Assembly: GCA_018771605.1 (NCBI GenBank) | Contig: CP076324.1 | Coordinates: 558,001 to 622,000 of the forward strand | Length of the DNA stretch: 64,000 nt | Direction: 5' to 3' | Source: Aquificota bacterium | GTDB lineage: Bacteria > Aquificota > Aquificia > Aquificales > Aquificaceae | In this document: positions 36,866-38,504 of the stretch, one piece after another | Position numbering within the stretch: position 1 is the first letter of the stretch | Layout: the number at the start of each line of letters is the position of its first letter | The notes under the pieces: model-generated | What the model saw: only the letters and a program-made list of their open reading frames with translations | Told to the model about the DNA's origin: nothing | Databases searched by the model: none | Position numbers and translations under genes: made by a program

Positions 36866-36894
36866 ATTATAATCCCTTTGGGCTATTTAGGCAA
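36866..36894 (-). promoter_or_regulatory. Promoter of tRNA-His (and probably epmA)
   Basis: Minus-strand TTGCCT (36889-36894), a 17-base spacer, then a perfect TATAAT (36866-36871), about 15 bases upstream of the tRNA 5' end. The -35 box lies inside the left direct repeat next to the TnpB-related element. Confidence 0.65.
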
Positions 36895-36955
36895 GTAAGC
36901 TTGAGGGTGTGTCAAAAATCCACCTTACCTACGGTTATGTTAAAATAACGAAGAG

Positions 36956-38453
36956 ATGATAACCATAAGTGCTAAACTTTTATTCTCAAACTATCAAGAC
37001 AAAGAGAAAGTCTTAAACCTCATGAGAAAATGGTCCTCAGCTATGCGATATGCCTATAAAAGGCTTTTGGAGGGAACGGAAATAAACACTTTAAGAAAGT
37101 TAATCCAAGGTGTATTTGGACTAAATTCTAGATATTCGTATTCAGCCATTGTTAAAGCTCAAGCTTTGATGAAAGTAAGAAAAGAAAAAGGACAAAGCTT
37201 AAAAAAGGTCATCTTTGGTGGAAGGGATATTTTTAGAAAACTGCAAAAAAGACATATAAATGGGAGAGACTACCAAAGACTAAAAACTCAGTTCCAAGAG
37301 AGAAGGAAGGGAAATCTATACTCCATAGGACAAAAACACTCAAAAGGAAATCAAAACACAAGGATAGAGGTAAGAGAGAATGGAACATATCTTAGAATAA
37401 ACACAGGAGAAAGGCAGTATGTATATGCCTTGATAAGTGCAAGAGAGAATAGAAAAGATTAAAGAGATAGCCTTTTCTGGAAGAGCATATACGGTAGAGC
37501 TAAAGCTAAGAGATGGCAACATCTATGCCTACTTCACTATAGAGGAAGAATATCCAGAAGTAGAGATTACAAAGGATTATGGAGTAATAGGCATAGATTT
37601 AAACGCCTATCCAAACCACATAGCTTGGGCAGAGACGGATGAGTGTGGAAACCTTTTAAGCTATGGTGAGGTGCCTATGCCAGAGCTATCAAGTGGCAAT
37701 GGCAATAAGAGAGACTATTACACATGGATATACGCACATAAGGTTATAAGCTTAGCCAAAGAGAAGGGAAAGGCAATAGTGATAGAGAAGCTAAGGATAA
37801 AAGACAAAGGGAAAAGGGGGGATTATTCGGGAAGGCTTTCAAGAAGGATAAGACATAACTTTGCTTATAGGAAATTGTTAGAAAGGATAAAGCTATTGGC
37901 TAAAAGGGACGGCATAGAGGTGATAGAAGTAAATCCAGCCTACACATCCATCATAGGCATGTTAAAGTATGCACCGCAATACATGGTAAGCAAGGATATG
38001 GCAAGTGCCTATGTGATAGCAAGGAGAGGCTTAGGACTAAAAGAAAAAGTGCCAAAGAATTATATGGAGCTTATAAGAAGGCTAAGTGTAGAAGGACTGA
38101 TGGAACTGAAAGAGTATGTGAAAGAAAAGGTAAAGAATGCCTATTTGAAGGCTAAACACATAAAGGAGATAGAAGCTTTGATAAAGACTTTAAGCCTTGG
38201 GAGTGAGCCAAGGAGAGTATTCCAGCCTCTGGATGGAACAAGCGGGGATACTCTTAATCTCTGGCGAGTTCTCAAGGTAGTGGTGCTGACTGCACTCTCT
38301 CCTGAGAAGGTCTTAAGGGACCTCTCTGTCCTGAAGGAGAAACTCTTTCGGGGCTTGTGGGGAGACCCGAGAAGGGCGCAAGTTCCCGTTGCAGGGGACG
38401 GGGGCGTAGCCTACGAATGTGTTAGTAGGCTATTTTGGGAACACCCTGAGTAA
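36956..38453 (+). pseudogene. TnpB-related RuvC-like nuclease, reading frame split by a +1 shift
   Basis: Two overlapping frames (36956-37462 and 37437-38453) together make one TnpB-like protein of about 495 residues; removing one base near 37445-37455 joins them. The N-terminal frame (KLLFSNYQDKEKVLNLMRKWSSAMRYAYKRL) is the usual helical/WED start. The second frame carries the RuvC triad: Asp in GVIGIDLN (residue 54), Glu in IVIEKLRI (117), Asp in SKDMASAY (187). The CxxC...CxxC zinc ribbon expected before the last Asp is absent. Products are RNA-guided nucleases in the canonical family. All catalytic residues survive, so the break is recent, a sequencing error, or recoded. Confidence 0.75.
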
Positions 38454-38458
38454 GCTTG
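38269..38458 (+). ncRNA. Candidate omega-RNA-like structured 3' end of the TnpB-related gene
   Basis: The last 190 bases are far more GC-rich than the rest of the gene and fold by eye into nested hairpins: TTCTCA/TGAGAA (38269-38274, 38303-38308); CTTTCGGG with CCCGAGAAG (38345-38352, 38366-38374, one bulge); GTTCCC/GGGAAC (38382-38387, 38437-38442) enclosing TAGCCTAC/GTAGGCTA (38407-38414, 38425-38432). In studied TnpB loci the guide RNA scaffold is made from exactly this place. Assignment is inference from position and pairing. Confidence 0.5.
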
Positions 38459-38504
38459 GAGTTTGAGTTATCACTGAGCCTTTACAACTATTATACTTTT
38501 CCTT

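Follow-up and report, generated by a model that had tools for sequence, protein, structure and literature searches.

Descriptions of TnpB usually link it to the TnpA of IS200/IS605 or IS607 elements and, to our knowledge, IS200/IS605 elements have neither terminal inverted repeats nor a target duplication. Guide-RNA loci without an adjacent nuclease gene are familiar from IscB, in the form of the stand-alone omegaRNAs also called HEARO RNAs. IS607 elements encode a serine-recombinase TnpA and are without inverted repeats or target duplications (PMC6188088). As for what the nuclease might do for its carrier, known TnpB proteins are thought to cut the empty donor site, thereby favouring retention of the element (IS605-type elements; PMC10278001 and the discussion in PMC11061315).

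The closest relative, outside the genus, of the locus described here is L080 of Caldanaerobacter, an IS607 TnpB/reRNA locus with an IS607 TnpA (NF033518, 1.5e-68), whose TnpB belongs to the same subfamily (62% identity) and whose scaffold is the same by covariance model (E 6e-30). Where IS607 elements have TnpA and lack repeats and duplications (PMC6188088), however, the element here has both of these features and no TnpA. In ISFba1, another IS607 element (PMC11061315), the reRNA lies outside the coding sequence, whereas the RNA considered here overlaps tnpB. ISDra2, an IS200/IS605 TnpB-omegaRNA system, resembles our locus in that the scaffold overlaps the 3' end of tnpB and stops at the right end, and in the Cas12f/TnpB fold of the protein; it differs in that our element is without a TnpA Y1 transposase, without hairpin-type ends and without a zinc finger, and has inverted repeats and a 9-bp duplication instead. 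Fanzor1 of the Spodoptera frugiperda ascovirus (PMC10711439) is also a TnpB relative carried by a non-autonomous inverted-repeat element with duplications, and there too the repeat lies within the guide RNA, but its setting is a eukaryotic virus and insect and its nuclease is of another branch, whereas our element is bacterial, IS607-related and accompanied by ORF-less copies of the scaffold. Our system differs from the HEARO RNAs in having TnpB as its nuclease and in that the RNA unit takes the form of a mini-transposon, which has inverted repeats, promoter-like sequence and, in part of the copies, a target duplication.

We consider it very probable that the structured tail of the tnpB gene at this locus is a TnpB guide-RNA (omegaRNA/reRNA) scaffold, situated in a non-autonomous inverted-repeat transposon that would be mobilised in trans. 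The scaffold RNA itself can be assigned to the TnpB guide-RNA kind; what appears to be new is the carrier, together with its ORF-less mini-elements. In the open-access literature, of which our coverage was partial, we found no report of a bacterial TnpB in inverted-repeat elements.

A tnpB element with inverted repeats

The window, by which we mean the whole stretch of 64,000 nucleotides that was analysed, corresponds to positions 558001-622000 of genome G000, a single contig of 1.72 Mb. Homology among the genomic copies spans exactly 36903-38448 of the window, and this plus-strand interval of 1546 bp, in agreement with the repeats and duplication found by script, is the whole inverted-repeat element; it contains the frameshifted tnpB and the scaffold only, with no TnpA. 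The left terminal inverted repeat, GAGGGTGTGTCAAAAAT (36903-36919, plus strand), is common to sister copies and complementary to the right end, where the repeat ATTTTGGGAACACCCTG (38432-38448, plus strand) is also the last part of the scaffold; in sister copies the terminal inverted repeat reads GAGGSTGTKTCAAAAAT. The element is flanked by identical copies of a 9-bp target duplication, AGTAAGCTT, at 36894-36902 and 38449-38457, the right copy of which would furnish the first nucleotides of the guide. G000 has seven close tnpB-type copies, namely the window copy (L001) and L002-L007, with L007 being disrupted, as well as the ORF-less L008. A scripted search of the copies detected duplications of 9-10 bp, in combination with such repeats, in eight of them, which come from four genomes (L001, L003, L004, L005, L006, L116, L130 and L131), and the one of L008 was seen on inspection; L090, with only 7 bp and unrelated ends, was discounted as a ninth.

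The inverted repeats and the 9-bp duplication rule out an element of the IS200/IS605 class, and the IS607 class is ruled out by these features together with a content of only tnpB and scaffold. Terminal inverted repeats and a target duplication of fixed length instead mark the carrier, as judged from its sequence, as a non-autonomous DDE-type transposon. When 13 congeners were searched for the empty site, the tRNA-His and obgE sides were found, never adjacent to one another, and no empty site was seen. At L041:377-643 (G000:C1:433676-433942) there is a derivative of the TnpB element that has been reduced by deletion to 267 bp, with both ends and part of the scaffold kept. Copy L002 is adjoined by an IS607-type pair (L049:3824-5960) consisting of a zinc-finger TnpB and a serine-recombinase-like TnpA; also next to this copy, a membrane glycosyltransferase-like gene has its first half directly duplicated (L049:235-2204).

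In the window copy tnpB is split by a frameshift into an N-terminal part (TIGR01765; 36956-37462, plus strand), the frame of which ends early, and a C-terminal part with the RuvC region (TIGR01766; 37437-38453, plus strand), placed by its ORF and family matches; five sister copies are open. The last ~80 codons of the C-terminal ORF overlap the scaffold, and its stop codon is in flanking DNA. An earlier first-pass annotation of this DNA had noted that the protein encoded by the tail has low family character, and this is borne out by the intact proteins, which have TIGR01765/TIGR01766 domains that end at residue 332 of an intact sister copy of 495 aa, and by a predicted model in which pLDDT is <50 for most residues after about residue 415, the part encoded by the scaffold. 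Structure comparison reveals a Cas12f/TnpB fold across residues 1-372 (Z 17.3 to Cas12f1 and 14.3 to ISDra2 TnpB), and the RuvC triad D215-E278-D348 is invariant in 26 homologues; fold and triad, both taken from intact sister copies, place the modelled protein in the TnpB family. The invariant triad also rules out TldR, the nuclease-dead TnpB repressor in which the RuvC catalytic residues are lost. Many members of the TnpB family, though not all, have zinc-finger CxxC motifs between RuvC II and III, and no cysteine motif was found before the third RuvC residue in the homologues inspected. PADLOC model PDLC01039, which bears the label Csx1, matches the greater part of the TnpB proteins of L003, L080 and L116 (E to 8e-59), and that label may be misassigned.

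Relatives are present in 32 of the 61 genomes searched (G000 included), and also in Caldanaerobacter/Thermoanaerobacter. The protein tree divides the inverted-repeat copies into two groups, which are kept apart by supported branches and united in no bootstrap tree, and these two separate groups would most simply be explained by TnpB having passed twice from IS607-type to inverted-repeat elements; as the tree is midpoint-rooted, we infer the direction of this transfer.

The RNA at the 3' end of tnpB

The first-pass annotation had proposed that a GC-richer tail, starting at 38269 and with at least four stems, is a guide-RNA scaffold. The tail does have a GC content of 0.57 over 38240-38419, compared with 0.32-0.43 in the gene body, and the sequence from 38200 to 38470 folds at -111.6 kcal/mol (z -3.2), with none of 200 shuffles equally stable. 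The proposed start has to be moved, as the structured RNA begins about 70 nt further upstream; the predicted scaffold runs from about 38200 to the right end at 38448. Its 5' domain (38197-38274, plus strand), which includes a conserved box, CTCTGGATGGAACAAG, has an alignment fold of 26 pairs, of which 6 are changed on both sides. It is followed by the core (38275-38448, plus strand), for which 25 scaffolds from three genomes were aligned over 179 columns. The core alignment fold has 48 pairs in nine helices, more than had been claimed, with 97.7% of cells paired, a value that is inflated, as are the covariation counts, by the relatedness of the copies. Compensatory base changes among homologues, on which the annotation had staked its reading, are seen on both sides of 14 of the 48 pairs, as against 7.1±1.4 when shuffled and with none of 500 shuffles reaching this number; when the structure is slid by 1-3 columns only 0-3 such pairs remain, although a structure derived from the same alignment is favoured over its slid versions.

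Within the core, covariation supports a 9-bp helix 7 (GTTCCCGTT/GACGGGGGC; 38382-38405, plus strand) and, together with folding, a terminal hairpin formed by helices 8 and 9 (38406-38433, plus strand). The latter contains the perfect 8-bp stem TAGCCTAC (38407-38414)/GTAGGCTA (38425-38432) that had been picked out from the sequence alone, and whose folding energy in isolation is -13 kcal/mol (z -3.9), a stability reached by none of 200 shuffles. The GTTCCC/GGGAAC stem (38382-38387/38437-38442) thought to enclose it can be formed in this copy but is not conserved: over the 25 copies 59.3% of its cells pair, which does not exceed the shuffled value, and of its six pairs one is present in just one of 25. 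As a conserved helix it is ruled out, the supported partner of GTTCCCGTT being the local GACGGGGGC (38397-38405).

An independent check on a fold derived from its own alignment is provided by searching other genomes with a covariance model, R1, built on the scaffolds of three related genomes. R1 has matches in 12 of the 61 genomes. In the comparison with related TnpB 3' ends that had been suggested, 24 distant tnpB loci were searched and the 3' end of the gene was matched in 18, in 17 of them over the full length. The matches include IS607-type loci as well as a second inverted-repeat lineage, in which they stop at the right repeat or within a base or so of it. A search of Rfam returned no matching family for the scaffold. 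Both the covariation and the presence of the same RNA at the 3' ends of distant tnpB genes support the interpretation of the tail as a TnpB guide-RNA scaffold.

ORF-less copies, mobilisation and insertion sites

Copies of about 0.3 kb that lack the body of tnpB are found once in G000 (L008, which is the same as L250) and eight times in the sister species G002 (L251, L255, L258, L261, L264, L267, L275 and L316), a genome that also has many scaffold copies carrying an internally deleted tnpB. A -35/-10 pair followed by the conserved box and scaffold is kept in eight of these nine mini-elements, the promoter-like pair being TTGCCA-N17-TATAAT in L250 and mostly TTGACG-N16/17-TATAAT in G002; the -10 region is lost in L275, and parts of the scaffold in L316. 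A left repeat cannot be recognised in L261 or L267; 10-bp duplications are clear in L250 and L264 and a near-identical one is present in L255. As the scaffold is kept in elements without an ORF, no protein explains its conservation, and comparison of L250 with the G002 copies reveals compensatory changes, for example CGGGTC/GACCCG versus CAGGC/GCCTG, where no protein is encoded. The mini-elements look like stand-alone guide-RNA genes, most of them placed behind a sigma70-type promoter-like sequence.

In G000 no intact transposase could be found that has these repeats. Similar repeats enclose degraded remnants of a DDE transposase in G019 and G035, and an IS of about 0.8 kb, with similar repeats and a split reading frame, is present in G040; the family matches of the candidate transposase are weak (IS5-like, DDE_Tnp_1). 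If we were to guess, the best candidate for a mobiliser acting in trans would be the DDE transposase of an IS5-like family that shares the repeats. G019 and G035 also contain many mini-elements of 0.14-0.3 kb with the same repeats (L170, L171, L173, L174, L176, L181 and L193), several of which encode decayed fragments of DDE transposase, with no guide-RNA scaffold. An IS982-like transposase was considered and rejected as the mobiliser, since the element to which its 24 genome matches belong has repeats of its own, ACGCCGAGTGAGAAATT, and the IS982-like copy found within an inverted-repeat element, at 1260590, is simply nested there. That IS982-like element has about 22 near-complete copies among the 24 matches in G000:C1, examples being L040:791-1639, L200, L201 and L202.

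The window element is inserted directly upstream of the tRNA-His promoter (TTGCCT-N17-TATAAT; 36866-36894, minus strand), identified by promoter scan, the tRNA gene and site comparison, and the -35 box of this promoter, which on the plus strand reads GGCA, abuts the target duplication. Of 96 left ends, 27 have GTCA at a distance of 9-11 nt on the outer side, where 0.7 would be expected, compared with 2 of 61 scaffold (right) ends (left versus right, Fisher p 4e-5), although the sets of ends, gathered by pattern, contain some hits due to chance. The GTCA/GGCA motif, when read outward, is a -35 box, and at 49 sites with G[TG]CA at 9-12 nt a good -10 box is found 16-18 nt further in 24, compared with 3.4 expected. 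In related elements, too, many insertions are found immediately upstream of sigma70 -35 boxes, as if placed there by a promoter-seeking transposase and, since the motif is a -35 box with a -10 box following, the preference would most simply be that of the transposase.

When an element that bears a scaffold has the motif, it is nearly always found upstream of the guide, which is where a target-adjacent motif (TAM) would have to be. We do not take this as proof of a TAM, because GTCA at this distance is likewise seen in mini-elements that belong to the same repeat family but have no TnpB, on both sides, at 4 of 14 and 3 of 11 ends. It seems somewhat the better bet that the GTCA/GGCA beside the duplication reflects purely a transposase preference for -35-box sites with no role as a TAM, a reading that competes with the motif as TAM and leaves the identity of the scaffold untouched. 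The TnpB-less ends and the frequency of a following -10 box both favour it, but it does not easily accommodate the one-sidedness in scaffold-bearing elements, which is itself weakened by the chance hits and by a weak contrast in motif side with the TnpB-less elements (p 0.04-0.08).

Predicted mechanism and its implications

If the tail is a guide-RNA scaffold, the RNA would extend from about 38200, overlapping the 3' end of a gene for a TnpB that has no zinc finger, through the right end at 38448 and into host DNA, so that the first host nucleotides would serve as the guide. The guide is predicted to be 38449-38468 (plus strand), based on the end of homology and on known TnpB guide RNAs, with a length of about 20 nt being assumed. 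It had been suggested earlier that the guide starts just past 38447-38458, and this is bracketed by the end of copy homology at 38448 and the target duplication at 38449-38457; should the duplication be built into the scaffold, as has been proposed for Fanzor1 (PMC10711439), the effective guide start would be near 38458 rather than 38449. The carrier, with its target duplication of 9-11 bp, would be moved in trans by a DDE transposase. An empty site would present, in order, GTCA/GGCA, the 9-11 bp target and the right flank, to which a guide made up of target and right flank would correspond, whereas in the occupied site the right target copy is preceded by CACCCTG and not by the motif, and the element would be spared. 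In this scheme we infer that the RNA is transcribed and loaded into TnpB and that the empty site is cleaved, as well as the identity of the transposase. Against it stands the broken tnpB of the window copy: because of the frameshift its RNA would have to use TnpB from sister copies, and the window copy itself may be decaying.

Two other explanations of the tail deserve to be weighed. It is very improbable that it is simply structured DNA or mRNA that serves in transposase binding, in termination or in stabilising the mRNA and does not act as a guide. Even if the right end holds an inverted repeat that the transposase must bind, the fold is about 250 nt, far beyond the 17-nt repeat, and covaries as RNA; it is also common to IS607-type TnpB loci with other ends, and a promoter/terminator scan found no terminator-like site. 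A better case can be made, although on balance we doubt it, for an ancestral guide scaffold of which the window copy, perhaps along with all the others in G000, is a dead remnant. The frameshift in the window, the disruption of L007, the failure to find an intact transposase in G000 and the many internally deleted copies in G002 all point this way, but they have to be set against the five sister copies that are open and base pairs that are intact in nearly all copies, mini-elements included.

It is tempting to speculate further that DDE-type transposons have taken over the TnpB guide system at least twice, that they have shed dispersed promoter-driven mini-elements which guide in trans as stand-alone genes, and that the motif of the transposase is the TAM. 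A transposase that inserts beside -35 boxes would, in this proposal, have its target motif serve as the TAM, and guides would in turn match promoter-adjacent sites genome-wide. We regard the combination as tentative and rather unlikely to hold in full.

The same nuclease and RNA are here found in inverted-repeat elements of the cut-and-paste type, apparently twice independently, just as eukaryotic Fanzors are carried by such elements. The idea that the guide start and the TAM follow the target chemistry of the transposase becomes testable in bacteria. Finally, if one looks for guides that work in trans, the mini-elements without an ORF are natural candidates, and they are relevant to the question of how transposon nucleases could have become separated from their guides on the way toward systems such as CRISPR.
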